Source: a virus. Taken from it: a stretch of DNA of 64,000 nt. Each line of letters begins with the position of its first letter. Position 1 is the first letter of the stretch. Both the position numbers and the translations under genes were made by a program. Under the pieces are notes generated by a model that saw only the letters and a program-made list of their open reading frames with translations, was not told the DNA's origin and ran no database searches. Where the stretch lies: the IMG/VR virus record IMGVR_UViG_3300031951_000060, positions 36,598 through 100,597 of that record. The stretch is one strand, 5' to 3'. Positions 17,264 to 49,583 of the stretch are shown piece by piece.

Positions 17264-17590
17264 ATGGAGACATATCAGCACAAGCCAATAAAAAGGTTTG
17301 CCTTAGATGGAGTAATCAATGATGACTCTGCTATATACAGATTACAGCAGGAATATATCAGGTTACTCGTATCAGAGATGCGGTTATCAGGATATGCTCC
17401 ACGATTTGACATTGACCCACAATTTACATTATCATATAACGAAGCCAAAAACTATTTTGAATTTAAATTAAGCGTATACGGAATATATGTCGGGAGAAAA
17501 AAGAGCGAATGGATACTAGGAATAGACGGAGCCAAGCCAATATATACACAGCCAACCAAATTAAAAGAGTACTCGCAGGATCTGGCTTAA
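17264..17590 (+). CDS. Hypothetical protein
   Basis: A 108-residue protein between helicase and primase. It looks like a compact alpha/beta fold with LQQEYIRLLVSEMRLSGY helix and a FEFKLSVYGIYVG strand pair. No Shine-Dalgarno is evident; a TATAAT eight bases upstream suggests leaderless expression. Overlaps the primase start by 82 bases in another frame. Function not recognised. Confidence 0.6.
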   Translation: METYQHKPIKRFALDGVINDDSAIYRLQQEYIRLLVSEMRLSGYAPRFDIDPQFTLSYNEAKNYFEFKLSVYGIYVGRKKSEWILGIDGAKPIYTQPTKLKEYSQDLA

Positions 17591-18453
17591 ATATAGAAAA
17601 AGAGGCTGAGTCTGAATATATTGTCTTTTGTCCTTTTCATGCTAACCATAGAACTCCAGCAGGAGAAATAAATAAATTTAGTGGGCTTTTCTTTTGTTTT
17701 TCTTGCAGCAAGGTTGCAGATTTAGTAGAGTTAGTTATGCATTGTTCAAATAGAACCTATTTCGAGTCTGTTAGATTTATTAAGAGTAAAGAAATAGAAA
17801 CAGATATTTTATCTGACGTTACTCAAAAATTAATAGATAAAGAAGAGTGGAAGGAGTTTGACCACTCTCTTATAGATAAACTTAATAGCCAGGCATTGTC
17901 GGATAATCGTGCTATTGAATATTTTAATAAAAGAAAATTAACCAAAGAGTCTATAGTAAAATTTAAATTGGGATATTCGTTGTCTCAAGATATGGTAACT
18001 ATTCCAGTTCACAATCATGAGAACCTCTGCGTTGGCTTTGTTGCTAGATCTATAGAGGGTAAAGATTTTAAAAATACCCCAGGTCTCCCAAAGTCAAAAC
18101 TACTATTTAATTTAAATAGAATAAAAACAGCAAGCCGTGTCTATGTTGTAGAATCATCTTTTGATGCCATTAGGCTTGATCAGGTCGGAATGCCAGCAGT
18201 CGCAACATTAGGGGCAAATATTTCCACAAAGCAGGTCGACTTATTGAAAAAATATTTTACTGATATAATGGTTATAGCAGATAACGATGATGCTGGAGAC
18301 AACATGAAAGATAAATTATTATCCAGATTTGGATCTAGCATTACATTTATTGCTTTAGATAAAAGATATAAGGACATAGGAGAAATGGAGGATGAAGAGA
18401 TAAAAATGCTTGATTACTCTTTTGATAAAAGCATAATGTCTCTTTTACAATAA
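17509..18453 (+). CDS. DNA primase, DnaG-like (CHC2 zinc finger and TOPRIM)
   Basis: A 314-residue protein, short for DnaG because no helicase-binding C-terminal domain is seen. The CHC2 zinc finger has C41-x2-H44 and C63-x2-C66. The TOPRIM core shows VVESSFDAIRL (Glu215), TLGAN and VIADNDDAGD (Asp258, Asp260), the metal-binding acid set. It makes RNA primers for lagging strand synthesis and works with the helicase encoded upstream. The ATG at 17509 gives an 82-base overlap with the previous gene; no better start is visible before the zinc finger. Confidence 0.9.
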   Translation: MDTRNRRSQANIYTANQIKRVLAGSGLNIEKEAESEYIVFCPFHANHRTPAGEINKFSGLFFCFSCSKVADLVELVMHCSNRTYFESVRFIKSKEIETDILSDVTQKLIDKEEWKEFDHSLIDKLNSQALSDNRAIEYFNKRKLTKESIVKFKLGYSLSQDMVTIPVHNHENLCVGFVARSIEGKDFKNTPGLPKSKLLFNLNRIKTASRVYVVESSFDAIRLDQVGMPAVATLGANISTKQVDLLKKYFTDIMVIADNDDAGDNMKDKLLSRFGSSITFIALDKRYKDIGEMEDEEIKMLDYSFDKSIMSLLQ

Positions 18454-18454
18454 T

Positions 18455-18979
18455 ATGTTATTAGAATCAGTTCCAAGTGGTCATACAATTATAAATGTTT
18501 TCATGCAAAATCCAAAAAGATTTATGCCGCTACTTTCATTTGCACAAAACATTTTAAGGGAAGACTCTTTTTTAAGTTCTACAGATAGAGAAATAATTGC
18601 TACGTTTACATCCAGTTTAAATAAATGTAAGTTCTGTACTGGATCACACCGAATTTTTGCTATTTCTGTAGGGGCAGATGAAAGTCAGATAGATAAGATA
18701 ATCAATCAAGACTATCAAGATTTAAAGTTGGCTCCAATATTAGACTATGTTAAAAAATTAACACTAGAGCCATCTGAACTTAGCCAAGAGGATGTTTCTC
18801 GTGTTTATAATGCTGGATATTCTGAAGATGAATTAAAAGATGCAATAACAGTTTGTGCAGCATTTAATCTTTTTAATAGAATTGTTGAGGGGCATGGAGT
18901 AGAAGAAAATTCAGAAACATGGCTACCTTCAGCAGAAGAAATTAATAAGTTTGGCTATGATAGGAGTAAGGCTAATTAG
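18455..18979 (+). CDS. AhpD/carboxymuconolactone decarboxylase-like protein
   Basis: A 174-residue helical protein, one base after the primase. It carries the CKFCTGSHRIFA motif (Cys-x-x-Cys followed by His four residues on, about 59-66) diagnostic of the AhpD/CMD fold, in which the cysteine pair reduces peroxiredoxins or peroxides through a proton relay. Length and the single-domain layout match peroxidase-related CMD proteins. It stands immediately before the flavin-dependent halogenase and is probably co-transcribed with it, so it may handle peroxide leaked from reduced flavin. This link is inference. Confidence 0.8.
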   Translation: MLLESVPSGHTIINVFMQNPKRFMPLLSFAQNILREDSFLSSTDREIIATFTSSLNKCKFCTGSHRIFAISVGADESQIDKIINQDYQDLKLAPILDYVKKLTLEPSELSQEDVSRVYNAGYSEDELKDAITVCAAFNLFNRIVEGHGVEENSETWLPSAEEINKFGYDRSKAN

Positions 18980-18994
18980 TTTAGCATATAAACT

Positions 18995-20440
18995 ATGAAT
19001 ATAATTATTGCAGGCGGAGGTACGGCTGGTTGGATTGCTGCTTATTTTATTAATAATGCTCAACCAAATATGCATAACATTACAGTCATTGAATCTTCTC
19101 AGATAGGCATTGTCGGTGCAGGAGAGGCTGCTGCTGGATCTTTGTTTGAATTATTGGATGGTGGATTTTTTAATAAAAAAATACCTATTCAGGATTTTAT
19201 TAATAGCACAGATGCAACTACAAAGATGGGGATTAGACATACAAATTGGGCTGGTAAAAATGAATCTTATTTTGCTCCTATTGACCTAAGTCCTACAACA
19301 CAAAAAAATATAGATTATATTTTTAACTATGTACTACATAAGTATGGTCCATCTAAAATTCATCTCGCCTCTAGACTTGGAATTCGTTATGAAAATAACC
19401 AATTCGATAGAGGCAATGGATTACATTTTGACGGCCACAAAGTTGGCAAGTTTTTTAAAGAACATACGATAGGAAAGAATGTTTCTGTCATAGATGCAAA
19501 AATATTAAAGGTTAATATAGGTGCAGATGGCAGGATTGAATCTTTATTCCTAGATAACGACCAAACCATTGAAGGCGATCTTTTTATAGATTGCACTGGT
19601 TTTAGGCGTGTATTAATTAGCGAAACAGATGCAAAGTGGAAATCAGTTTCAGATATTTTAACAGTTAATTCCGCAATGCCGTTTATTGAACCATATGCTG
19701 ATAATAATAATTTTATTCCAGAAACTGGGGCAACCGCTTTAAGTTCTGGCTGGATGTTTGATATTCCACTAAAAACACGCAGAGGTATGGGATATATATA
19801 TGATAATAACTTTATATCTGATGATGATGCTAAACTTGAATTAGAAGAGAAAATTGGACATGAGGTAGAGCCAATTAAAATTATTAGGTTCGACACTGGA
19901 TATTTCGAAAAATCATGGAATAAAAATGTTTTGTCTTTAGGACTTGCCTCTTCATTTTTAGAGCCATTAGAGGCTACATCAATTCATAATACTATTGCTC
20001 AGTTGCATGTTTTTGTCAATCACTTTTTTAATGGTCATCTTCAGTCAATTAACAATGAACTAAGTCAACAGATGTACAATAAGTTAATATCAAGACTAAA
20101 CGAAACAAGTATTGATTTTATTTCTTTGCACTATCAAGGCAAAAGAAATGATTCAGAATTTTGGCAAAATATATATCATAACAATCTTGCAACAGATACT
20201 GTAAAAGAGATAGTTAATGTTTGTCAGTATAGAATCCCCACTATAGCAATATATGATGGAGTTATAGGATCCTACGGAATACCTCTTGCAAAATGGAATA
20301 TGGTTGGTCTTGGGCTAATCAATGAAGAGCAGGCATTGACAGAATTAATGATGTCTGATACACTAGATATTGCTAAGACTGAATACGATATTTTTAGAAA
20401 TACAGTATTAAGTAAAATGCAAATTCTAAAGTCTACTTGA
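18995..20440 (+). CDS. Flavin-dependent (tryptophan-type) halogenase
   Basis: A 481-residue protein of typical length for the PrnA/RebH family. Seen in order: FAD-binding GGGTAGW (7-13); the Lys77 region ATTKMGIRHTNW, matching the halogenase lysine that carries the haloamine or guides hypohalous acid; IDCTGFRR near 198-205; GWMFDIP at 252-258, in the place of the family motif WxWxIP with Phe for the second Trp; and SSFLEPLEATSIH near 315-327, containing the conserved Glu. Such enzymes use FADH2, oxygen and halide to halogenate aromatic carbons. Substrate is unknown. Flanked by replication genes; no flavin reductase is recognised nearby. Confidence 0.88.
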   Translation: MNIIIAGGGTAGWIAAYFINNAQPNMHNITVIESSQIGIVGAGEAAAGSLFELLDGGFFNKKIPIQDFINSTDATTKMGIRHTNWAGKNESYFAPIDLSPTTQKNIDYIFNYVLHKYGPSKIHLASRLGIRYENNQFDRGNGLHFDGHKVGKFFKEHTIGKNVSVIDAKILKVNIGADGRIESLFLDNDQTIEGDLFIDCTGFRRVLISETDAKWKSVSDILTVNSAMPFIEPYADNNNFIPETGATALSSGWMFDIPLKTRRGMGYIYDNNFISDDDAKLELEEKIGHEVEPIKIIRFDTGYFEKSWNKNVLSLGLASSFLEPLEATSIHNTIAQLHVFVNHFFNGHLQSINNELSQQMYNKLISRLNETSIDFISLHYQGKRNDSEFWQNIYHNNLATDTVKEIVNVCQYRIPTIAIYDGVIGSYGIPLAKWNMVGLGLINEEQALTELMMSDTLDIAKTEYDIFRNTVLSKMQILKST

Positions 20441-20465
20441 CAAACAAGTAATTCTTTAGTATACT
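20437..20465 (+). promoter_or_regulatory. Consensus sigma70-type promoter for SSB-polymerase operon
   Basis: TTGACA (20437-20442), 17-base spacer, TATACT (20460-20465). It overlaps the halogenase stop and lies 29 bases before the SSB start, with AAGGAG (20482-20487) as ribosome site. This near-perfect promoter likely drives strong expression of SSB, polymerase and RecA. Confidence 0.8.
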
Positions 20466-20493: not shown

Positions 20494-21153
20494 ATGAGCG
20501 TTATTAAGGGACTAAAAAATATCAATGCCCTGCTCGACAAACCAAAAGAAGACTCACCAAAGGTACGTTGGCTAAAATTGGCTGATGGACAGGCAGTAAA
20601 GGTTCGTTTCATTGAAGAGTTGGACGAAGATTCTGCACACTATGAAGAAAAGCGTGGCCTTGCACTAGTTGTCAAGGAACACACAAATCCAAAGGACTAT
20701 AAGCGTAAGGCAGTAGACACCATGGATACTGAAGGCCGTGACTGGGCTGAAGAGATGTATCGAAAAGATCCAAAGGGCAATAGCGGATGGCGTGGTCGTC
20801 TTCGTTTTTATTGTAATGTACTTGTAGATGATGGTATTGAGGACAAGCCTTATGTCGCCATTTGGTCTATGGGTGTAAGCAAGCAATCTGCCTTTAACAC
20901 AATTCGTGAGTATGCTCTTGAAACAGGTAGCATTTCAAATATCACATGGAAGTTAAAGCGTAATGGTCAGGGTACTGAAACATCTTATACTTTGATTCCT
21001 TCGGCTCCAGATAAGGAACCGTTTAACTGGGAAGGCGTTGAGCCGTACCCATTGGAGAAGGCACTACGACGTGTACCATATGCAGAGCAAGAGGCTTTCT
21101 ATCTTGGCTTTGATTCTCCATCTACAACATCAGCGACGAATATCGACTGGTAG
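20494..21153 (+). CDS. Single-stranded DNA-binding protein (phage type)
   Basis: A 219-residue protein with a strong ribosome site and its own consensus promoter. Layout fits a gp32-like phage SSB: a basic/OB-like middle with KVRWLKLADGQAVKVRFIEE near 23-43 and strand-rich YVAIWSMGVSKQSAF, and a C-terminal tail of polar residues ending in IDW. It sits directly before the DNA polymerase, the usual place. It would coat single-stranded DNA during replication. The family is diverse, so assignment leans on position and style. Confidence 0.7.
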   Translation: MSVIKGLKNINALLDKPKEDSPKVRWLKLADGQAVKVRFIEELDEDSAHYEEKRGLALVVKEHTNPKDYKRKAVDTMDTEGRDWAEEMYRKDPKGNSGWRGRLRFYCNVLVDDGIEDKPYVAIWSMGVSKQSAFNTIREYALETGSISNITWKLKRNGQGTETSYTLIPSAPDKEPFNWEGVEPYPLEKALRRVPYAEQEAFYLGFDSPSTTSATNIDW

Positions 21154-21156
21154 TAG

Positions 21157-24100
21157 ATGAATTACGTACCACTACACTTACATACCCACTTTTCACTATT
21201 CGACGGAATTGGGTTGCCGTCTGAATATGTAGATCGTGCTACAAAATTGGGAATGCCTGCAATTGCGATTACAGACCATGGCTCCCTTTCTGGCCACAGA
21301 GAAATGTATCGTGTTGCTAAAGCAAGTGGTATCAAGCCTATTCTTGGCATAGAAGGATATATGTGTGAGAACCGATTTGACCAAAGGGACAAAGAGGACA
21401 GAACAACTCCACTAGATATGGTGTATAACCATATTATCCTTCTAGCCAAGAATAAGGTAGGCTTAGAAAATCTAAACAAGTTAAATGAAATTGCATGGAC
21501 AGAGGGCTACTATAAAAAGCCACGAATTGACTTTGAAGTTTTGTCTAAATATAAAGAAGGAATTATAGTTTCATCTGCATGTCCAAGTGGTATTATTGCT
21601 AAGTCTATAGAACTTGGCGAACTGGGGATGGCAAAAAGATATATTAAGTGGTTTAAGGATGAGTTTAAGGATGACTACTATCTTGAAGTGATGCCACATA
21701 ATCCCGAATCAATAAATAATGTAATTCTTCAGTTAGCAGATGAGTTTGGAGTAAAGCCTATTGTCACTCCAGACTGCCATCATGTTGACTCATCACAAAA
21801 AGAAATTCAAGAACTAAAACTTATTCTTAATACATATTCAAATAAGATTCAGAAAGATGCTACATACGAGAAGTCCAAAAAGCAAGGGGACTTAATGAAG
21901 CGTCTTGATTACCTATATGGCGCAGATAGACAAATGTCATTTAATAAGTTTGATATACACCTTCTGTCATACGAAGAGATTCAGGCTGCTATGGAAAAGC
22001 AAGCAATCTATAGAACTGATATTTATGAAAATACAATCGAACTTGCAAATAAAGTTGAAGACTATGATATTAAGGATGGACTAAACCTCCTTCCAGTTCA
22101 ATATAAGGATCCAGACAAACAACTAAAAGAATTGGCAATATCTGGTTTGGTAGAAAAGGGTCTTGACAAAGATCAGGAATATCTTGATAGACTTGATGAA
22201 GAATTAAAAGTAATTCAAGATAAAAAGTTTGGACCTTACTTCCTTGTCGTGCAGAGTATGATTTCTTGGGCAAAGAAAGAAGGCATTATGGTTGGTCCAG
22301 GTCGTGGATCTTCTGCTGGCTCATTACTTTGCTATGCTCTTGGCATTACCGATATCGATCCCCTCAAGCATGGACTTTTGTTCTTCCGCTTTATTAATCC
22401 AGAACGTAATGACTTTCCAGATATTGATACAGATATTCAAGACTCTCGCCGTGATGAGGTCAAAGATTATCTTGTTAGACAATATAAACATGTTGCTTCG
22501 ATTGCAACATTCTTAGAGTTTAAAGATAAGGGTGTGGTACGAGATGTTGCTCGTGCATTAAATATTCCATTGGCAGATGTAAACAAAGTTTTGAAGTTGG
22601 TAGATACTTGGGATGAGTATTGCACTTCAAAAACTACTGCATGGTTTAGAGAGAAATATCCAGAGGTAGAGCAATATGGCGAACAACTTCGTGGTCGTAT
22701 TAGAGGTACTGGCATACACGCTGCTGGTGTTGTCACTAGTAAAAATCCTATTTTTAGGTACGCACCGATGGAGACACGTAATTCTCCTGGTTCCGATGAG
22801 CGTATTCCTGTTGTGGCAGTGGATATGGAAGAGGCTGAAAAAATCGGGCTTATCAAAATCGACGCACTTGGACTAAAAACCTTAAGTGTAATTAATGATA
22901 CAGTTAATATTATTAAAGAACGAGAAGGAACGGAAATAGATCTTTTAAATATTGACATGTCTGATTCAAAGGTATACCAGATGCTTTCTGAGGGATTCAC
23001 AAAGGGTGTATTTCAGTGTGAAGCAACCCCATATACCAATCTTCTAATAAAGATGGGTGTAAAAAATCTAGCAGAACTTGCTGCTTCAAACGCTCTTGTT
23101 CGTCCAGGTGCAATGAATACTATTGGAAAAGACTATATTGAGCGCAAGCACGGTAGGCAGTCAGTAAATTATTTACATCAAACGATGAAGCCTTTCACAG
23201 AAGAAACATATGGGTGTATCCTATACCAAGAGCAGGTCATGCAGGCCTGCGTTCAACTTGGAGGTATGTCTTGGTCTGAGGCTGATAAGGTTCGCAAGAT
23301 CATTGGTAAAAAGAAAGATGCTAGAGAGTTTGATGCGTTTCGTGATCGTTTCGTTGACGGTGCTTCTAAGTTTATTAGTCCTAATCAGGCTCGTGATTTA
23401 TGGCATGACTTTGAGGCGCATGCGGGTTATTCGTTCAACAAGTCTCATGCGGTTGCTTACTCTACGCTCTCGTATTGGACGGCATGGCTAAAGTATTACT
23501 ATCCACTAGAGTTTATGTACTCTTTACTTAAAAATGAAAAGGACAAAGATGCGAGAACTGAATATCTTATTGAAGCGAAAAGAATGGGTATCAGCGTTAA
23601 ATTACCTCATATTAACGATTCGGATATTGATTTTAAAATTGAGGGTAAGGGTATTCGGTTTGGATTGTCGGGGATCAAGTTTATCTCTGATAAGATTGCA
23701 GAACGATATATATCGGCACGACCTTTTAAGTCTTTCGAGGAAGTTAAAGCCTTTACATTTACGAAAGGTAATGGAGTCAACAGTAGAGCGTTAGAGGCAT
23801 TACGAATAATTGGCGCTGCAACATTTTTAGATAATCCTAGAAATGATAATGAGATTCGTGAAAACCTTTATGAATATTTAGGTTTGCCAGAGTTTACCCA
23901 AACAGTTCCCTCACACTTTCATGCGTTTATTAACCCTGTAGAAGATTTTGAGGAAAAGGGATCTTTTATTTTAATGGGAATGGTAAAGGGGATCAAGCGT
24001 GGCAAAGGTTGGAGTCGTGTAGAAATATTAGATAAGACTGGAAGTATCGGTATTTTTGATGAAGAACAGACCACAATTGAGGCTGGTAGAAGTTATATTC

Positions 24101-24432
24101 TTTTATGTAGTGATAATAGAATTGTTAGCGCTGTTCCAGTTGATGAAATTAAAAAGTCAGACTCGGCATTAGTTAAATTTTTAAATTATAGAATGCTACC
24201 ATACAAGGATGATGAGTTGTTTGTTGTTTCGTTTAGGCCAAGAGTGACGAAGGCAGGGAAAAAGATGGCATCATTAACTTTAGCAGATACATCGAGAGAA
24301 TTGCATCCAGTAACGGTTTTCCCAACGGCTTTTGCAAAGGCTTATATGAAAATTGAGGAAGGCAATGCTTATAAATTTGAATTAGGTAAAACTAAAGACG
24401 GGACAGTAATATTGGAGGACATAAATGTTTGA
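21157..24432 (+). CDS. dnaE: DNA polymerase III alpha subunit (DnaE)
   Basis: A 1,091-residue replicative polymerase, a little shorter than bacterial DnaE. The PHP domain opens with HLHTH (residues 7-11), then ITDHGSLSG and TPDCHHVD, so metal-binding histidines appear intact. The palm carries GPGRGSSAGSLL, PDIDTDIQDSRRDEV near 421-435 with the two catalytic Asp, and KIDALGLKTL near 566 with the third. Fingers (YQEQVM, AGYSFNKSHAVAY) and a C-terminal OB-like part (ILMGMVKGIKRG) follow. It copies the phage genome with the helicase, primase and SSB encoded beside it. Overlaps mazG by eight bases. Confidence 0.95.
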   Translation: MNYVPLHLHTHFSLFDGIGLPSEYVDRATKLGMPAIAITDHGSLSGHREMYRVAKASGIKPILGIEGYMCENRFDQRDKEDRTTPLDMVYNHIILLAKNKVGLENLNKLNEIAWTEGYYKKPRIDFEVLSKYKEGIIVSSACPSGIIAKSIELGELGMAKRYIKWFKDEFKDDYYLEVMPHNPESINNVILQLADEFGVKPIVTPDCHHVDSSQKEIQELKLILNTYSNKIQKDATYEKSKKQGDLMKRLDYLYGADRQMSFNKFDIHLLSYEEIQAAMEKQAIYRTDIYENTIELANKVEDYDIKDGLNLLPVQYKDPDKQLKELAISGLVEKGLDKDQEYLDRLDEELKVIQDKKFGPYFLVVQSMISWAKKEGIMVGPGRGSSAGSLLCYALGITDIDPLKHGLLFFRFINPERNDFPDIDTDIQDSRRDEVKDYLVRQYKHVASIATFLEFKDKGVVRDVARALNIPLADVNKVLKLVDTWDEYCTSKTTAWFREKYPEVEQYGEQLRGRIRGTGIHAAGVVTSKNPIFRYAPMETRNSPGSDERIPVVAVDMEEAEKIGLIKIDALGLKTLSVINDTVNIIKEREGTEIDLLNIDMSDSKVYQMLSEGFTKGVFQCEATPYTNLLIKMGVKNLAELAASNALVRPGAMNTIGKDYIERKHGRQSVNYLHQTMKPFTEETYGCILYQEQVMQACVQLGGMSWSEADKVRKIIGKKKDAREFDAFRDRFVDGASKFISPNQARDLWHDFEAHAGYSFNKSHAVAYSTLSYWTAWLKYYYPLEFMYSLLKNEKDKDARTEYLIEAKRMGISVKLPHINDSDIDFKIEGKGIRFGLSGIKFISDKIAERYISARPFKSFEEVKAFTFTKGNGVNSRALEALRIIGAATFLDNPRNDNEIRENLYEYLGLPEFTQTVPSHFHAFINPVEDFEEKGSFILMGMVKGIKRGKGWSRVEILDKTGSIGIFDEEQTTIEAGRSYILLCSDNRIVSAVPVDEIKKSDSALVKFLNYRMLPYKDDELFVVSFRPRVTKAGKKMASLTLADTSRELHPVTVFPTAFAKAYMKIEEGNAYKFELGKTKDGTVILEDINV

Positions 24433-38135: not shown

Positions 38136-39587
38136 ATGCGTATATTAGGTATTAATGAAACAACACATGATGCATCTATAACATTAATTGATGATGCAAA
38201 GATAATTTTTGCTGGGCATGCTGAAAGATTTAGTAAACAAAAAAATGATTGGTTTACTAATGATGAGTTAATAGATTATGCGTTGTCATTTGGAAAACCA
38301 GACACAATAGCATATTATGAAAATAGATGGTTAAAAAAGGCCAGAATCTTGACTCGTGGAGGTTTCGGTGGCAATAAGCCATACTATCTAGAACGAAAAG
38401 ATCTTAGGTGGATTCCTCGTGAATCTTTTAGCCATCATTATTCTCATGCTTCAGCAGGTTACTATACAAGTAAATTTAATGATGCAGTTATAGTAGTTCT
38501 TGATGCCATTGGAGAATATAACACTTCTACTATTTGGGTTGGCGAAGGCACAAAAATTAGACAGGTATATAAAAAGAATTATCCGTATAGTTTTGGATTA
38601 TTCTATTCTGCTTTTACGCAGTTGGTTGGACTAAAGCCAAACGAAGAAGAATACATATTCATGGGAATGGCTGCTTATGGAGACTGGACAAGATATTATT
38701 CAAAAATTAAAGAATATTTTCCACATGTAGATATTCAAAAATATAATTTTCATAAAGGAATATATGATTGGGATGAGATAATAGATGATCAAGCAAAATT
38801 TGATATTGCTGCTGCTGTACAAAAGGTATATGAAGATAGGCTTGTAAACTTTATGGCAAAAGCACAACAACTAACTGGAAAAAGGAATTTGGTTTTTATG
38901 GGCGGATGCGCCTTAAACTGTGCAGCGAACACAATGCTTTGGAGAATGTTTGATGATGTTTGGATTATGCCAAACCCAGGCGATGCAGGATCTTCTCTTG
39001 GCGCTGCAGCCGCAGCCTATGGAAAACATTTAGATTGGAATCATCCATATCTAGGATATGATTTAGGTGGAAAATATCCAGTAACAGAAATAATTACTGG
39101 CTTGGTTAGGGATAAAATTGTAGCAGTGGCAACTGGAAAAGCAGAATATGGCCCAAGAGCATTGGGAAATAGAAGTATACTAGCAGACCCCAGGGATCCA
39201 AGCATTAAGGATAAAGTAAACCTAATTAAGAAGAGAGAACTTTTTAGACCATTTGCTCCAGTAGTTATGGAGGAATATGCACACAAATGGTTTAAAATGA
39301 ATTTTACAAGCCCTTATATGCAATATGCTGTTGAGTGTTTGCAACCAGACAAGATACCTGCCGTTATACATAAAGATGGAACTTCAAGGGTACAGACAGT
39401 AAATAAAGATCAGCATCCAGGTCTGTATGAAGTTTTGTCAAATTGGTATGCTATGACTGGAGTTCCTATATTACTTAACACTAGTTTAAATATAAAGGGG
39501 CAGCCATTAATTAATGATGAACAAGATATAATTAATTGGGAAAATCAGTATAATTTTAAAATTATTGGTGGTGGTAATAATGTTTAA
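38136..39587 (+). CDS. Carbamoyltransferase, NodU/CmcH family
   Basis: A 483-residue protein. The N-terminal Kae1/YrdC-type ATPase fold shows LGINETTHDASI, HAERFSKQKND, HHYSHASAGYY (metal-binding His), VLDAIGEYNTST and MGGCALNC near 254-262. The C-terminal part has GPRALGNRSILADPRD and LFRPFAPVV. The family moves a carbamoyl group from carbamoyl phosphate to a hydroxyl via carbamoyl-adenylate, as on Nod factors, antibiotics and some modified phage bases. Acceptor unknown; neighbours (SGNH hydrolases, dioxygenase, glycosyltransferase) suggest a sugar-containing product. Near-leaderless promoter upstream. Confidence 0.88.
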   Translation: MRILGINETTHDASITLIDDAKIIFAGHAERFSKQKNDWFTNDELIDYALSFGKPDTIAYYENRWLKKARILTRGGFGGNKPYYLERKDLRWIPRESFSHHYSHASAGYYTSKFNDAVIVVLDAIGEYNTSTIWVGEGTKIRQVYKKNYPYSFGLFYSAFTQLVGLKPNEEEYIFMGMAAYGDWTRYYSKIKEYFPHVDIQKYNFHKGIYDWDEIIDDQAKFDIAAAVQKVYEDRLVNFMAKAQQLTGKRNLVFMGGCALNCAANTMLWRMFDDVWIMPNPGDAGSSLGAAAAAYGKHLDWNHPYLGYDLGGKYPVTEIITGLVRDKIVAVATGKAEYGPRALGNRSILADPRDPSIKDKVNLIKKRELFRPFAPVVMEEYAHKWFKMNFTSPYMQYAVECLQPDKIPAVIHKDGTSRVQTVNKDQHPGLYEVLSNWYAMTGVPILLNTSLNIKGQPLINDEQDIINWENQYNFKIIGGGNNV

Positions 39588-39669
39588 AAAAATAAAAACA
39601 TGGATATTGAGGTATAGAGCAAAAAAGGCAATAAAAAAAATAAATAATGACAGAAATTGGATATATTGA
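39580..39669 (+). CDS. Short basic peptide
   Basis: A 29-residue open frame starting inside the end of the carbamoyltransferase gene and ending with TGATG overlap into the next ATG. It is Lys/Arg/Ile-rich with the look of an amphipathic helix. The tight overlaps at both ends favour a real coupled gene. Confidence 0.4.
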   Translation: MFKKIKTWILRYRAKKAIKKINNDRNWIY

Positions 39670-40592
39670 TGAACGATAAAGAAGAATACTTTAAAAAACA
39701 AAAAAAGTCATTATTAAAAACAAATCAGGTAAAACGATTTTGGACTATAGATGAGTATGGTCATGGATTTTTTTTACCAATGACAAGAACAAGAGACTTC
39801 GAGCCTATTTATAATGGTAAGTTAGACAGCCTAAAGCCTAACGAAACCTACACCTCTATGTGGGCAGAATTTGATACAAATCCAAATATGGTAGATGATT
39901 ATTCAATATCATATAAAATGAACAAAGATGGTTTTAGGTCTGATAACTTTATTAAAAAACATGAAGGGCTTCACATCTTGTTTGCGGGGTGCTCAGAAAC
40001 TTTTGGCTCTGCTGCAAATCTAAATGATGTTTGGGCAAAGATGTGCTATGATAAAATTAGTTCTTATAAGAGGGTTTCTGGATATTTTAATATAGGTCAT
40101 CCTGGCGCCAGTATGTTCACTATATTAAACCAAATATTAGTTTATATAGAAAATTATGGCAGTCCAGACTTGCTTTTATTAAATGTACCTAATTTTGAAA
40201 GAACATACGGATGGAGTTTTGATCATAATCAAATAATGCAAGAAACAGATCAAGGCATTCACTCTAATAAGAAAAAATATTTTGATCGAATATTTCAAAA
40301 CGCATACTTGTATTGGACGTTAGAAAGAATGTGCAAGATCATGAATATAAAACTAATCTGGTCATGTTGGCAGCAGGTAGATGCCTTTAATATTGAATTT
40401 CTTGATATTTTTAATAATTATATTTCTATTACCAATGCAGAGGACTTTGGCAAGTATCATATGGAAAATTGGGATAAATATAAAGACATACCTTATTCCT
40501 TAGTTAGAAGAGATGCCCAGCACCACGGTACATTTATTCATAGATATTGGGCAGACAAATTTATTGAAGCAGTGAACAATTATGAAATTTGA
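39669..40592 (+). CDS. SGNH/GDSL-type hydrolase-like protein A
   Basis: A 307-residue protein; ATG 39669 is preferred to the TTG 12 bases before. Block I is FAGCSETFGS (Ser near 107), a glycine block NIGHPGAS follows, then PDLLLLNVPN, and RRDAQHHGTFIHRYWAD near the C-terminus supplies the Asp-x-x-His pair. SGNH enzymes are esterases or acyltransferases acting on sugar O-acyl groups. Paralogous to the next gene. Probably modifies the same product as the carbamoyltransferase. Confidence 0.7.
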   Translation: MNDKEEYFKKQKKSLLKTNQVKRFWTIDEYGHGFFLPMTRTRDFEPIYNGKLDSLKPNETYTSMWAEFDTNPNMVDDYSISYKMNKDGFRSDNFIKKHEGLHILFAGCSETFGSAANLNDVWAKMCYDKISSYKRVSGYFNIGHPGASMFTILNQILVYIENYGSPDLLLLNVPNFERTYGWSFDHNQIMQETDQGIHSNKKKYFDRIFQNAYLYWTLERMCKIMNIKLIWSCWQQVDAFNIEFLDIFNNYISITNAEDFGKYHMENWDKYKDIPYSLVRRDAQHHGTFIHRYWADKFIEAVNNYEI

Positions 40593-41547
40593 TTTGTATA
40601 CAGAATACTTATCTAAACTTAAGGCTAATGATGACTTTGTTAGTATAATGGAGGCAAGGGTTGAGTCAATCCTAAAAAATTTTCAACAGTCTGCAATGAA
40701 TCACCCGTTTGCTAGTAAGGGAAAAAATTTTTTACCTATATACGATATAGATAGGATTTTGGAAAGTAATCAAAAATATTATTCACTAAATTCTGAAAGG
40801 CTGGACAGTTCTTATTTAAACAACAAAGACATTGAATACAGTTTAAACAATGAAGGATTTCGTGGAGATGATTTTAAAAGCAATCATGAAGGCTTGCATG
40901 TTTTATTTGCAGGATGTTCAGAAACTTTCGGAAACTCATCAAGAATAGAAGATAACTGGTCTCATATTGTTTATGAATATTTAAAAGAAAAAAATAAAAT
41001 GTCTGGATATTTTAATGTAGGATTTCCAGGTGGAAACATAGAGATAATAATTCATCAAATTATGAACTATATCTTGAGATATGGGGCACCCGATATTTTA
41101 TTAATTATTTTTCCCAATATAGAAAGAAAAATTTGTTGGGTAGACAATAAGTTTAAATTAAAAAATAAAAAAACTGAAATAGAATTAAATACAAATTTGT
41201 CAGACGATCAAAAACAATATTTTGAGGATTTATATAGTGCATGTTTGACCTATATGCAACTATCCTTGTTTTGTAAAATATTAAAAATTAAACTTCTATT
41301 TTCTACTTATGATAGCGTAGACTCTCTTGGAATTAAAACTTTGTTTAATTTCCCCGAATTTATCTCTATCAATAATAGTAATGATTTTATGAAATATGCA
41401 CAAACCTTAACCGAATATGAAAAAAGAGAAGATTTATTCATACGCAGAGATAATAGTCATAGAGGAGTTGCCTTTCATAAATTTTGGGCAAAAAGGTTTA
41501 TTGACAAATTAGAGGATGATGGTATAATATATAAGGAGGAGAAATAA
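40582..41547 (+). CDS. SGNH/GDSL-type hydrolase-like protein B
   Basis: A 321-residue paralogue of the preceding gene, overlapping it by 11 bases. Shared blocks: LHVLFAGCSETFGNSS, GYFNVGFPGGNIE, PDILLIIFPNIERK and RRDNSHRGVAFHKFWAKRF with Asp-x-x-His. The tandem pair suggests duplication and either a heteromer or two acyl specificities. It ends at the ribosome site of the next gene. Confidence 0.7.
   Translation: MKFDLYTEYLSKLKANDDFVSIMEARVESILKNFQQSAMNHPFASKGKNFLPIYDIDRILESNQKYYSLNSERLDSSYLNNKDIEYSLNNEGFRGDDFKSNHEGLHVLFAGCSETFGNSSRIEDNWSHIVYEYLKEKNKMSGYFNVGFPGGNIEIIIHQIMNYILRYGAPDILLIIFPNIERKICWVDNKFKLKNKKTEIELNTNLSDDQKQYFEDLYSACLTYMQLSLFCKILKIKLLFSTYDSVDSLGIKTLFNFPEFISINNSNDFMKYAQTLTEYEKREDLFIRRDNSHRGVAFHKFWAKRFIDKLEDDGIIYKEEK
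41520..41528 (+). promoter_or_regulatory. Extended -10 promoter (TGGTATAAT)
   Basis: Located inside the end of SGNH gene B, followed by AAGGAGGA and the ATG at 41547. It may start a second transcript for the dioxygenase-ferredoxin group. Confidence 0.55.
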
Positions 41548-42434
41548 TGGAACTTATTGGACACCCGCTTTTAAGAAACTACCCTGGAAATATTGACACA
41601 GATATTGAGTGGCACTATATATCTAAAGAAGATTATATGGAGATGGAGTCAATACTTACTGAAGGTGTTACCTTTTTTGATCCATTTATTATTGATAATT
41701 TTTATCCTCAAGACATGTTTGATGAATTAGTGTCAATTTGTAATTCTTTTGATCTTTCCAAAATAGATTATTCTAATCAAATGAATAAATGGGAACAGGT
41801 TGTTAATATACCTCAAAAATTTATCGATTATGCAGTAAATAAAATAAGAGATGCTTTAGGCACATCAGATATTCACTATGCCTATCATATGTATGCACAT
41901 CATCAAATAACTTCAGAGGGCAGAGTTCCAAAACTTCCATTACATATAGACTGGGCACCAGGCGCATATATGGTAGATCTTCATATTGGAGGCAATCGTG
42001 ATTGGGGCTTTGTTGCAAGATATGAAAACTTTATCACTAAGCCAAATCAGGCTGTCATTTGTCAACCACAGTTTGACTTTCACTATAGACCCAAGTGGAA
42101 CTCTCAAGATACAAATGAATATTATCAGGCACTATTTTTTCATCTTGTTAATAGAAATAACTGGTCTATTCCAAATGAGTCTATTAAGCAGAACAGATCA
42201 GACTATCTAAATTCTAAATATAATTTTGGAATAGACTTTAGAGAAACTGAAATTTTTAAAAATTTTCAAGAGCAAAGAAATTTAATTTTTAACAGATTGT
42301 ATACAAGATCTATGATGGCAAAAGGATTGCCCCTGCCTCCGTGGGACGAAATTCCTTCTGAGCAAGACACCAATATACATCAAAGAAAGGGAGTAATCCC
42401 TGCAAACAATATAAATCAGAATGAGGAGAAGTGA
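41547..42434 (+). CDS. 2OG-Fe(II) dioxygenase-like protein
   Basis: A 295-residue protein with strong ribosome site. LPLHIDWAPGAYMVDLHIGG gives H133-x-D135, and ICQPQFDFHYRPKW gives distal His179 and Arg181, the iron and 2-oxoglutarate ligands of the jelly-roll dioxygenases. The N-terminus has FFDPFIIDNFYPQDMFDELV, the entry pattern of prolyl-hydroxylase-like proteins. It probably hydroxylates a protein, lipid or sugar component made by this gene group. A ferredoxin is encoded shortly after, though 2OG enzymes do not need one. Confidence 0.65.
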   Translation: MELIGHPLLRNYPGNIDTDIEWHYISKEDYMEMESILTEGVTFFDPFIIDNFYPQDMFDELVSICNSFDLSKIDYSNQMNKWEQVVNIPQKFIDYAVNKIRDALGTSDIHYAYHMYAHHQITSEGRVPKLPLHIDWAPGAYMVDLHIGGNRDWGFVARYENFITKPNQAVICQPQFDFHYRPKWNSQDTNEYYQALFFHLVNRNNWSIPNESIKQNRSDYLNSKYNFGIDFRETEIFKNFQEQRNLIFNRLYTRSMMAKGLPLPPWDEIPSEQDTNIHQRKGVIPANNINQNEEK

Positions 42435-42437
42435 TTG

Positions 42438-42638
42438 ATGGAATCAAGTAAAAAAAGTTTAATAAAAACTATAAGTTGGGAATCTTTCCATTTAATAGGA
42501 GTTGCTGGAGTAATTTATTTATTTACAGGTGAATGGGAATATGCAAGCCTAGGAGCACTAATATATATAGGATGGGAAGCAATTGGTTACTATATTCATG
42601 AAAGAGTATGGGCAAAGTTTGGGAATAGGGTAAAATAA
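42438..42638 (+). CDS. DUF2061 membrane protein A
   Basis: A 66-residue protein; ATG 42438 follows GAGGAG. SLIKTISWESFHLIGVAGVIYLFTG then YYIHERVWAKFG fits DUF2061, a two-helix membrane family often found in bacteria next to sulfate activation genes (cysN/cysC). A second copy lies at 48081, beside an APS kinase-type gene. Possibly related to sulfate or PAPS handling. Confidence 0.75.
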   Translation: MESSKKSLIKTISWESFHLIGVAGVIYLFTGEWEYASLGALIYIGWEAIGYYIHERVWAKFGNRVK

Positions 42639-42748
42639 TGAGAATTAAAATTATTAAATTTGTTGTAAAACTATTGGGATACGAATGGTCTGGTGATAAT
42701 CTTAATTTGCCAGTTTGGCAGGTAAAGGCTAAGAAGAAGGGCAAGTAA
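42638..42748 (+). CDS. Short basic peptide
   Basis: A 36-residue open frame, with its ATG overlapping the stop of DUF2061 A and its TAA overlapping the ferredoxin ATG. Hydrophobic-basic N-terminus and KAKKKGK tail. Coupling at both ends supports expression; function unknown. Confidence 0.5.
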   Translation: MRIKIIKFVVKLLGYEWSGDNLNLPVWQVKAKKKGK

Positions 42749-43053
42749 TGCCCTACGTTATTTCTAGCGCATGCATAGATATAAAGGATAAGTCCTGTAT
42801 CGAAGAGTGTCCTGTTGATTGCATTTATGAGGGTAACAGGATGATGTATATAAATCAGGATGAGTGTATTGATTGTGGGGCATGTATGCCAGTGTGCCCA
42901 ACAGAAGCAATATATTGGGAAGACGACCTTCCTGAATCTGAAAAAAAATTCAAACGAATTAATACTGAATTTTTTATACCAATAGGAAATTTGCAGGGAG
43001 CAAGAAATCAAATTGACAAAGATATGGATCATCCAGAAGTAAAGGATACATAA
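42748..43053 (+). CDS. fdxA: FdxA-type 7Fe/8Fe ferredoxin
   Basis: A 101-residue ferredoxin. Eight Cys are arranged as C9-x7-C17-x3-C21-x3-C25 and C40-x2-C43-x2-C46-x3-C50, the pattern of actinobacterial FdxA with one 3Fe-4S and one 4Fe-4S cluster. The phrases CIEECPVDCIYEG and DECIDCGACMPVCP are nearly those of mycobacterial FdxA. It carries low-potential electrons, perhaps for an oxygenase, or substitutes for a host ferredoxin during infection. The C-terminal half is the usual FdxA tail. Confidence 0.93.
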   Translation: MPYVISSACIDIKDKSCIEECPVDCIYEGNRMMYINQDECIDCGACMPVCPTEAIYWEDDLPESEKKFKRINTEFFIPIGNLQGARNQIDKDMDHPEVKDT

Positions 43054-43054
43054 A

Positions 43055-43237
43055 GTGCCGAAGTATGAGTATTGCTGTAATAGATGTGAAAAATTTTATA
43101 TCATAGAACGATCAATCAATGAAGACGACCCTGGATATAAGTGTACACTGTGTCAAGAAAATTTAATAAGGGTTTATAGTTCTGTGGGGGTGATTTTTAA
43201 TGGTTCTGGATTTTACAAAACAGATAACAAAAAATAA
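43055..43237 (+). CDS. FmdB-type zinc ribbon protein
   Basis: A 60-residue protein with GTG start one base after ferredoxin. PKYEYCCNRC, CTLC and the closing GVIFNGSGFYKTD match the FmdB family of small zinc ribbons, usually proposed as regulators. Overlaps the glycosyltransferase by 38 bases. Confidence 0.78.
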   Translation: MPKYEYCCNRCEKFYIIERSINEDDPGYKCTLCQENLIRVYSSVGVIFNGSGFYKTDNKK

Positions 43238-44264
43238 AGAAAAAAGAATATACGTTATGATTCCAACACTTTTTGATGACTCTATTTATGGAACTGTGCT
43301 TGACGCAATAGACAAGGCTACTTATCCAGAAAGATTGACTTTTGGCCTATCTATTCAAGGGGTAAGCAATATAGATTTTTCAACTATAAAAAATGAAAAA
43401 CGTATTCTATTTCTTGATAAAAATATTGCCTATGGAGTTGGAAAAACAAGATATCATTTGCAGCAACTACATAATGATGAGGACTATATTCTAAGTATTG
43501 ACTGCCATACAGGATTTCAGGATGGATGGGACGTTTCTTTAATAGAAGAGCATTCTAAGTTGGGCAGCGACAAGGCAGTAATAACACAATTTTTGTATGA
43601 TACCTTTGCAGATAAAAAATATGCAAAATCTAAATATGTATACTCTGAAACAGATAATTGGTGTGTTATGTATTTGCCACATGCTGATCTTAAAAATGTT
43701 TCTTTTGTTACTGGAAGTAATAAAACACAACGGGCAGCGCCACACTTTTTATTTGCCACAAAAGAATTCGCAAAAATACCATATCCATATATGTATTTTT
43801 GGGGGGACGAAGACTCTATGCTTTCTATAAAATTATATTGCAATGGTTTTGATATGTATGAATTAGAAAGCACTTTTTTAACTACAGTTTCTAAGGATAA
43901 GTGGTCTTGCATTAGAAGAACTCAGTGGTTTTGGACTGCAGCCTCAAAATATACAACACAATATAATATTAAAAATTTACCAAATCATATACATGATGAA
44001 GCATTAGGGGAAAAGGCGCTATTTGAATATGATTATCATGACTTAGAGTATTCCTATCATTTACTAAATTCTGAAAAAAATGATGGGGTAAACCTTTCAT
44101 TTGAATTTGCTAATTTGCTTGAAAACGGCTATAATGATATACTAAAGGAAGACTGGAGGGGTCCAGTCCGTTCCCTGTGGGACTATTTAAAATTTCATAA
44201 CATAACAACAGAACAATTAAATAATACAATTAGTCTATTGAGAAAAAGGTCGGGTAAAATATGA
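43200..44264 (+). CDS. Glycosyltransferase, GT60/GlcNAc-transferase-like (copy 1)
   Basis: A 354-residue GT-A-type protein. KRIYVMIPTLFDDSIYGTVLDAI starts the Rossmann-like core, YILSIDCHTGFQDGWD near 99-114 supplies the Asp-x-His metal motif, and YFWGDEDSMLSIKLYCNGFDMY near 200-222 the acceptor-site acids. This matches the [Skp1-type] GlcNAc transferase family (PF11397). A paralogue lies on the opposite strand at 50094. The likely product is a sugar-decorated surface or virion protein. Confidence 0.78.
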   Translation: MVLDFTKQITKNKEKRIYVMIPTLFDDSIYGTVLDAIDKATYPERLTFGLSIQGVSNIDFSTIKNEKRILFLDKNIAYGVGKTRYHLQQLHNDEDYILSIDCHTGFQDGWDVSLIEEHSKLGSDKAVITQFLYDTFADKKYAKSKYVYSETDNWCVMYLPHADLKNVSFVTGSNKTQRAAPHFLFATKEFAKIPYPYMYFWGDEDSMLSIKLYCNGFDMYELESTFLTTVSKDKWSCIRRTQWFWTAASKYTTQYNIKNLPNHIHDEALGEKALFEYDYHDLEYSYHLLNSEKNDGVNLSFEFANLLENGYNDILKEDWRGPVRSLWDYLKFHNITTEQLNNTISLLRKRSGKI

Positions 44265-48523: not shown

Positions 48524-49008
48524 TGCAAACATTTCTACCATCCCCAAACCCAATGTCTTCTGCAAGATTTTTAGATAGCAAACGACTTAATAAGCAAATA
48601 CTTGAGTGCTATCAAATTCTTAATGTGCTATCTGGCAAGTCTCCAACAGGTGGATGGCGCAATCATCCTGCCGTTCTAATGTGGAAAGGTTATGAGCGAG
48701 GTTTATGGCAATATGTACAAGCAATGATCTTTGAAGCACGTAAGCGTGGTATTCGTACAGAAAACAACGAGGCTAACCTTAACCGACTTAAGGATCAATG
48801 CTGGAACGAATGGGGAAATAATGTTCCTCAATTTTGGAATGATAGTACAAAACTTATGCGTGTAGTTACAACTCACCGTGCTAATTTATTTGACAAGGAT
48901 CCACTATATTATGCACGTTTTGGTTATGCAAAACATAGTTTATACAATCAGCCATGCTGCTCTGGATGCAAATACTATTGGGTAACACATGAGGGTAGAA
49001 ATGCTTGA
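48523..49008 (+). CDS. Pyrimidine-dimer DNA glycosylase-like (MSMEG_6728 type)
   Basis: A 161-residue protein. MQTFLPSPNPMSSARFLDSKRLNKQILECYQIL and GGWRNHPAVLMWKGYERGLWQYVQAM match the actinobacterial MSMEG_6728 family related to T4 endonuclease V (DenV). C-terminal Cys (CCSGCKYYW) may bind metal. It would remove UV photoproducts, useful for a phage of sunlit water. Overlaps the next gene by eight bases. Confidence 0.82.
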   Translation: MQTFLPSPNPMSSARFLDSKRLNKQILECYQILNVLSGKSPTGGWRNHPAVLMWKGYERGLWQYVQAMIFEARKRGIRTENNEANLNRLKDQCWNEWGNNVPQFWNDSTKLMRVVTTHRANLFDKDPLYYARFGYAKHSLYNQPCCSGCKYYWVTHEGRNA

Positions 49009-49399
49009 TCTATTGATTTTTATTTTAGTAGTTATTTCTATTGGCTTCCTTTCAATAGAAAATATTAGATTAAAAAATAAAGTTAACGAGTTAAATTTTT
49101 CTCTTATTCAATCGTATCTTGACATTGAAGCAATTAAAAAAATAAATAATAAAAAAGAACAAATTGAAAAAGATCACCTAATAGCCTTTTTAGATGATAG
49201 TAGAGACTCTGCCTATTCTTACATATCAGAAGCCCAAGAAAAAATTAATATTTTTATTAATGAACTTGAATCTGATGTAAATTATTTTAATAGTTTTGAA
49301 AATATTGCAAAACAAGATATGCACTATGAGTTAATTAAAAAATTTATCAAGCATTATAATTCACTTAAAGATTTGTTGCCAAAAGATGATAAACGCTAG
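49001..49399 (+). CDS. Membrane-anchored coiled-coil protein
   Basis: A 132-residue protein; ATG 49001 follows GAGGG by five bases and is preferred to 48989. One N-terminal membrane helix (LLIFILVVISIGFLS) is followed by a Lys/Glu/Ile-rich coiled coil over about 100 residues. The topology is like a phage spanin or Rz-like factor, but nothing confirms that. Confidence 0.52.
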   Translation: MLDLLIFILVVISIGFLSIENIRLKNKVNELNFSLIQSYLDIEAIKKINNKKEQIEKDHLIAFLDDSRDSAYSYISEAQEKINIFINELESDVNYFNSFENIAKQDMHYELIKKFIKHYNSLKDLLPKDDKR

Positions 49400-49583
49400 A
49401 GGTATTCCAACGAGCACGTGTCCGAGTTGTAGTTCGGACTTGTTTAAAGTAGTGGTTAAGTTTGATCCTGTAGATTACGAGATAGGGTTATACTATCTCG
49501 ATGGAGAGTGTGCAAAGTGTGGCACATTAGTGACAGTACCAACACCATTAGATCATCCAGAGAACCATAGGAGAGCGGAATGA
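49386..49583 (+). CDS. Zinc ribbon protein
   Basis: A 65-residue protein with CPSC (12-15) and CAKC (42-45), a complete four-Cys zinc ribbon with a beta hairpin between the knuckles (FKVVVKFD, GLYYLDGE). Overlaps neighbours on both ends. Similar to small actinobacterial proteins of unknown role. Confidence 0.6.
   Translation: MINARGIPTSTCPSCSSDLFKVVVKFDPVDYEIGLYYLDGECAKCGTLVTVPTPLDHPENHRRAE

Follow-up and report, generated by a model that had tools for sequence, protein, structure and literature searches.

A flavin-dependent halogenase gene and an AhpD-like gene in a variable primase–SSB slot of a phage related to Stanwilliamsviridae

The window analyzed here, a 64,000-nt stretch of viral DNA, carries a flavin-dependent halogenase (FDH) gene, FDH-A, next to a gene for an AhpD-like protein of the carboxymuconolactone-decarboxylase family (CMD). 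We consider it likely that FDH-A is a working two-component halogenase, carried in an exchangeable slot as an accessory gene of an actinobacteriophage and acting on an aromatic substrate other than free tryptophan, with the CMD as part of the same kit. The identity of the gene, its fold and catalytic residues, the variability of the slot, and the recurrence of its neighbors are direct observations. The features concerned, in window positions, are:

17509–18453, + strand: DNA primase, left edge of the slot (PF13155/PF01807; phrog_47, 6.8e-50)
18455–18979, + strand: AhpD-like/carboxymuconolactone-decarboxylase-family protein (CMD), 174 aa (PF02627, 2.3e-9)
18995–20440, + strand: flavin-dependent halogenase FDH-A, 481 aa (PF04820, E 1.1e-87; AlphaFold2 model; PrnA residue mapping)
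20437–20465, + strand: promoter-like site for SSB, TTGACA-17-TATACT (11/12 consensus match; known from sequence match alone)
20494–21153, + strand: SSB, right edge of the slot (phrog_9721, 3.6e-40)
21157–24432, + strand: DnaE-type DNA polymerase (55% identity, full length, to Streptomyces phage BillNye)
46798–47088, + strand: WhiB-like regulator (PF02467, 1.4e-11)

The pair thus lies between primase and SSB, where the original prediction had placed it. The AhpD-like ORF starts one base past the primase stop codon, and both slot ORFs are co-directional. At the other end, the FDH-A stop codon, TGA (20438–20440), falls inside the TTGACA of the SSB promoter-like site. This right edge is sharp: FDH-A and FDH-B, a non-orthologous halogenase of related phages, both terminate at ACTTGACA, whose TTGACA opens the promoter-like site and which is kept 3′ of FDH-B in loci L011, L096, and L104. 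The pair may be co-expressed with the primase, as judged only from the distances between the genes and from the promoter-like site that follows them, and may act during replication, as judged only from its position.

The primase–SSB junction is an accessory slot, the cargo of which varies among relatives. Between the window and L011, the FDHs are 29% identical, whereas the flanking proteins are 72–96% identical and the AhpD-like proteins 78%. The viral scans covered the best 80 loci and were pattern-limited, and their counts are samples, not natural frequencies. The slot contents observed, including a small membrane protein, TM102, that is described below, were:

window, L001–L008: AhpD-like gene and FDH-A
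L009–L011: AhpD-like gene, TM102, and FDH-B
L095–L104: TM102 and FDH-B
L014–L016: AhpD-like gene alone
L079, L090, L092, and many more: TM102 alone
L175, L191, L202: AhpD-like gene and TM102, in either order
L086–L088 and BillNye: empty, with SSB directly 3′ of primase and no cargo in BillNye

The pair had been described as inserted in the replication operon. Relative to BillNye, it is indeed an insertion, but the site is better described as an accessory slot of varying content, bounded by the SSB promoter-like site. There was no sign of recent import with a foreign base composition: the GC content is 32–33%, like that of the primase. An assembly accident or chimera was also rejected, since the same AhpD-like/FDH-A order occurs, 99–100% identical to the window, in four further IMG/VR contigs (L001–L004).

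Could the FDH-A gene be a passenger without benefit, lying at a junction that just tolerates cargo? The slot may be empty or carry only CMD or only TM102, as noted above. On the other hand, the ORF is intact, its catalytic residues are complete, and FDHs have been independently placed at at least three sites in the phage clade. Furthermore, dN/dS is low in the FDH-B and CMD comparisons (~0.08–0.25, with dS near saturation). We regard a passenger gene as very improbable.

Judging from the likeness of its DnaE to that of BillNye, the window phage is a relative of Stanwilliamsviridae. This likeness, together with the WhiB-like protein, points to an actinobacterial host. The record from which the window was taken (G000) is linear, 100.6 kb long, and may be incomplete.

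FDH-A scored 295.2 bits against PF04820 in the profile search (cut-off 21) and matched phrog_2928 with an E of 5e-97. Its FAD motif, GGGTAG, is intact (G7–G9/G12), and alignment to PrnA equates K77 with PrnA K79 and E326 with PrnA E346. The equivalent of WxWxIP reads W253-M-F255-D-I-P (WMFDIP), in which the second Trp is replaced by Phe. These results bear out the earlier reading of a full-length halogenase with the FAD motif, Lys77, the Glu, and WMFDIP. The AlphaFold2 model (pLDDT 94.2, pTM 0.92) found its best PDB fold matches in PrnA, PyrH, and Thal (TM ~0.8–0.86; PrnA 4z44, TM 0.86). A decayed enzyme was rejected on the basis of the complete ORF, the intact catalytic residues, and the high-confidence fold. 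A LodB-type maturase flavoprotein was rejected at 18.4 bits against the NF038171 cut-off of 400. No second FDH was found elsewhere in the 100.6-kb record in a search with profile A3.

Does Phe255 hint at a lost halogenase? The WxWxIP motif, treated here as typical of FDHs but not defining, has been suggested to block monooxygenation and is reported missing from some FDHs, e.g., Bmp5 (PMC8407142). Of 175 non-redundant phage FDHs, all have K77, W253, and E323 (175/175). At position 255, 158 of them carry Trp and 15 carry Phe; at position 326, 158 carry Glu, 11 Gln, and 4 His. The nearest relatives of FDH-A keep Trp255, and Phe255 occurs on several other branches; it therefore appears to be a recurrent, conservative change, and in a protein with a standard FDH fold it does not suggest inactivation.

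The Fx.Px.Sx.G tunnel motif, which we took as the FLEPLESTG stretch of PrnA and which bears on activity, not on family membership, is said to occur in active FDHs (PMC8407142). In FDH-A, it is altered to FLEPLEATS (F..P..A.S; Ser to Ala327 and Gly to Ser329). This alteration, seen in most phage FDHs examined, counts against an active FDH-A, as do the Phe in WxWxIP and the optional nature of the CMD. Through Phe255 and Ala327/Ser329, FDH-A might instead be a non-halogenating flavin monooxygenase that hydroxylates, or a generator of diffusible HOX/H2O2, beside which the CMD, a neighbor of thiol peroxidase type, would be protective; the altered Fx.Px.Sx.G and the loss of a motif suggested to prevent monooxygenation (PMC8407142) agree with this. 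However, FDH-A keeps K77 and E326, and the occurrence of Phe255 in 15 and of Ser at the Gly position (329) in 123 of the 175 phage FDHs marks these as family-level variants, not decay. Such a function is, in our judgment, decidedly unlikely.

Most of the phage halogenases known so far come from marine cyanophages; 20 of 153 cyanophages have a PF04820-type FDH. FDH-A belongs to a phage clade in which its best phage relative is 52% identical; the comparison with viral halogenases that had been proposed as a check placed it, in our trees, outside the clade of VirX1 from cyanophage Syn10 (PDB 6QGM). Like FDH-A, VirX1 is a phage PF04820 FDH with GxGxxG, the Lys, and the Glu, and without free-Trp motifs, but it is only 27.8% identical, lies in another genomic context, and has WVWNIP, FIEPLESTG, and YPFGP where FDH-A has WMFDIP, FLEPLEATS, and APIDL. 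The PF04820 genes of S-RIM44, HTVC008M, and P-SSM2 are likewise accessory FDHs, of cyanophages or a pelagiphage, and are 29–36% identical to FDH-A; the S-RIM44-type FDH has Gln for the catalytic Glu, whereas FDH-A keeps Glu326, and no AhpD-like neighbor is annotated beside the S-RIM44 FDH, whereas the window has one. The tryptophan halogenase gene of the Actinomycetia phage DSL-LC01, an actinobacterial lake phage, is also of the PF04820 type, but it is 25% identical, falls in another clade, has WVSKIP, and adjoins a glycosyltransferase gene, whereas FDH-A lies in the replication block. Among the cellular proteins of 399 genomes of one bacterial phylum, the best relative is ~37–38% identical, and a genome scan for cellular relatives with narrow patterns returned two sphingomonad loci only.

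Could free tryptophan be the substrate of FDH-A? PrnA, RebH, and PyrH share its fold (TM up to 0.86) and have Lys79/Glu346 equivalents, but FDH-A is shorter, lacks Trp4, and has altered Trp1 and Trp2 in addition to the Phe in WxWxIP. In the study that defined these tryptophan-contact motifs, the tested FDHs without Trp4 converted indole, not tryptophan (PMC8269204). FDH-A has AAAGSL at Trp1; at Trp2, where groups A/B of that study have HxFxx (HLFGN or YPFGP in other enzymes), it has APIDL. No Trp4-like motif was found in the 481 aa, the C-terminus being short. The APxx-type signature at Trp2 is common to the relatives of FDH-A. A non-tryptophan aromatic substrate is therefore expected, free tryptophan is unlikely, and calling the enzyme a "tryptophan halogenase" probably misnames its substrate.

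FDH-A could instead modify an aromatic residue in a protein of the phage or its host, in the manner of SrpI and MibH, which modify Trp in RiPP precursors (PMC10858898). A pocket signature unlike those of free-Trp enzymes is consistent with such a target, as is the finding of FDH-A relatives among 2OG oxygenase and tail/structural-type genes. However, no precursor-peptide gene lies beside FDH-A in the window, and the 2OG and tail-type neighbors are absent from the window locus, so protein-directed halogenation seems doubtful to us. More generally, no substrate gene adjoins FDH-A.

For the working halogenase that we favor, we infer the activity, halide, substrate, timing, and benefit to the phage as follows. 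A profile search of the 100.6-kb record, which may be incomplete, found no PF01613 flavin reductase; therefore, a host reductase would supply the FADH2. With FADH2, O2, and Br− or Cl−, FDH-A would form hypohalite, which Lys77 would pass on to the aromatic bound in the APIDL-type pocket. The target would be electron-rich: a small molecule of the indole or phenol type, or the side chain of an aromatic residue. The CMD would clear peroxide from uncoupled flavin or reduce the halogenated product.

Which of these two roles fits the CMD better? The CxxC-xxx-H AhpD-like protein said to precede the halogenase is there: it matches PF02627 with 37.5 bits (cut-off 23; E 2.3e-9) and keeps an intact thiol site, E46-x11-C58-xx-C61-xxx-H65, the four residues of which we take, on AhpD numbering, to be the AhpD site. 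The E-x11-CxxC-xxx-H pattern was present in all 11 full-length phage CMD homologues collected (11/11). The nearest curated family is TIGR01926 (peroxidase-related AhpD), at 79.9 bits slightly under the cut-off of 81.8, and the nearest solved relatives are of AhpD type (PDB 6k40 AhpD, sequence match 3e-15). The best folds for the CMD model are also the peroxidase-related AhpDs 6k40, 3c1l, and 2prr (E 2e-6), with which, as with Bmp8, it shares the all-helical AhpD/CMD fold. Two reviews present Bmp8 as a carboxymuconolactone-decarboxylase homologue that debrominates reductively via cysteine oxidation and is clustered with FDH brominases (PMC5577590, PMC7918430).

By analogy with Bmp8, FDH-A might over-halogenate an aromatic and the CMD strip one halogen by thiol chemistry. 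The fold matches to the CMD model include Bmp8 (6ohj and 6ohi), which stands beside Bmp2, an FDH, and Bmp5, a brominase, in the bmp pathway; the thiol site is intact; and a CMD recurs near an FDH in the separate contexts L176, L259, and L261. On the other hand, Bmp8 ranks only 32nd (E 0.0086, TM 0.62), behind the peroxidase-related AhpDs; the CMD profile has no sequence match to it at E<=10, so that the CMD resembles the former in sequence and Bmp8 at the fold level only; and in several lineages, a CMD occurs without an FDH. We consider a halogenation–dehalogenation pair unlikely. The context permits a dehalogenase role for the CMD itself, a rival that we take seriously but hold only tentatively. 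The sequence comparisons favor peroxide or redox support, ranked ahead of dehalogenation. The suggestion that the CMD handles flavin-derived peroxide therefore stands as one possible role, though not the sole one, given the precedent of an AhpD-fold debrominase.

An obligatory CMD–FDH pair was rejected, as each occurs without the other among relatives: CMD without FDH in L014–L016, L175, L191, and L202, and slot FDH without CMD in L095–L104. Outside the slot, a CMD is found near an FDH or beside TM102 in L176, L231, L259, and L261. The gene order in L259 and L261 is FDH, small ORF, phrog_7084 protein, AhpD-like, and WhiB-like ORF; that in L176 is phrog_7084-type protein, two FDHs, two ORFs, and AhpD-like. 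The TM102 match that overlaps an FDH in L176 is one long ORF and is poor evidence of adjacency. Among 73 FDH-A scan loci, the neighbor near the FDH was a CMD in 5 (three near-identical to the window), TM102 in 11, and a phrog_7084 protein in 13; the CMD is the weakest of the three partner links. Because a CMD occurs near FDHs outside the slot and the partners recur, the association of CMD with FDH appears to exceed mere inheritance, yet it is optional.

TM102 is a hydrophobic membrane protein of ~100 residues (e.g., L011 10497–10805 and L096 9708–10004) with no match in Pfam or PHROG. In a TM102-seeded scan that was blind to FDH, an FDH lay <=2.3 kb away in 37 of the best 80 loci. The phrog_7084 protein (~235 aa, function not assigned) has the motif PDWYKK..KxCxPFLDSLTSGY; its gene adjoins VirX1 in cyanophage Syn10 and adjoins FDH, TM102, or AhpD-like genes at the following loci:

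L146 4430–5218
L259 9654–10358
L261 2046–2765
L254 6292–7718

The window phage gave no match to a TM102 homologue, and the window holds no phrog_7084-type protein. FDH, TM102, CMD, and the phrog_7084 protein might form an interchangeable halogen-chemistry kit in which the CMD dehalogenates or edits the FDH product and the module acts on a host metabolite or protein during infection, which we think quite unlikely. The recurrent partners (the AhpD-like enzyme with its Bmp8 debrominase precedent, the 100-aa TM102, and phrog_7084) offer handles for finding the substrate.

Relatives also carry FDHs outside the slot, downstream of a RecB-like exonuclease. In G400, G401, and G403, an FDH lies beside homologues of window ORFs 48989–49399 and 49386–49583, a site at which the window phage has no FDH. 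Between homologues of these two ORFs, sister phages carry a second halogenase:

L166 6411–7958
L167 6636–8180
L168 1145–2683

The FDHs in the slot and at these other sites indicate repeated halogenase acquisition by this phage lineage. This one lineage swaps non-orthologous halogenases at a fixed position and gains more at separate positions. Such swapping and gain would reflect selection for halogenation as such and suggest that halogenation serves the phage while it infects its host.

Several further enzymes were observed in the relatives. In FDH-B (L011 10802–12253, L096, L099, and L104), the catalytic Glu is replaced by His (EPLHATS, EPLHGTS) and dN/dS is still low; the chemistry of FDH-B, and of the S-RIM44-type FDHs with Gln, may be different. 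An FDH subgroup with GWYWEA[GA] for GWxWxIP, a candidate for altered chemistry, adjoins other FDHs (L038 7099–8652, L039 10001–11548, and L040 10001–11545). Three or four halogenase genes cluster with several 2OG-Fe(II) oxygenase-like genes in L089 (7105–13409), L018, L036, and L084, an arrangement like that of a tailoring cluster. In the RecA region of the FDH-B phages, three tandem HxD...HWR proteins (L011 17682–19717) appear 2OG-oxygenase-like by eye; two of the three match phrog_2954 weakly, the tandem is missing at that place in the window, and the third ORF has no homologue matched in the window phage.

The window itself has a possible glycan-tailoring block at 38136–44264. It comprises a NodU-type carbamoyltransferase (38136–39587), two paralogous ORFs (from 39657 and 40582), a protein with HxD...HYR that may be of the 2OG type (41547–42434), and a GlcNAc-type glycosyltransferase (43200–44264).
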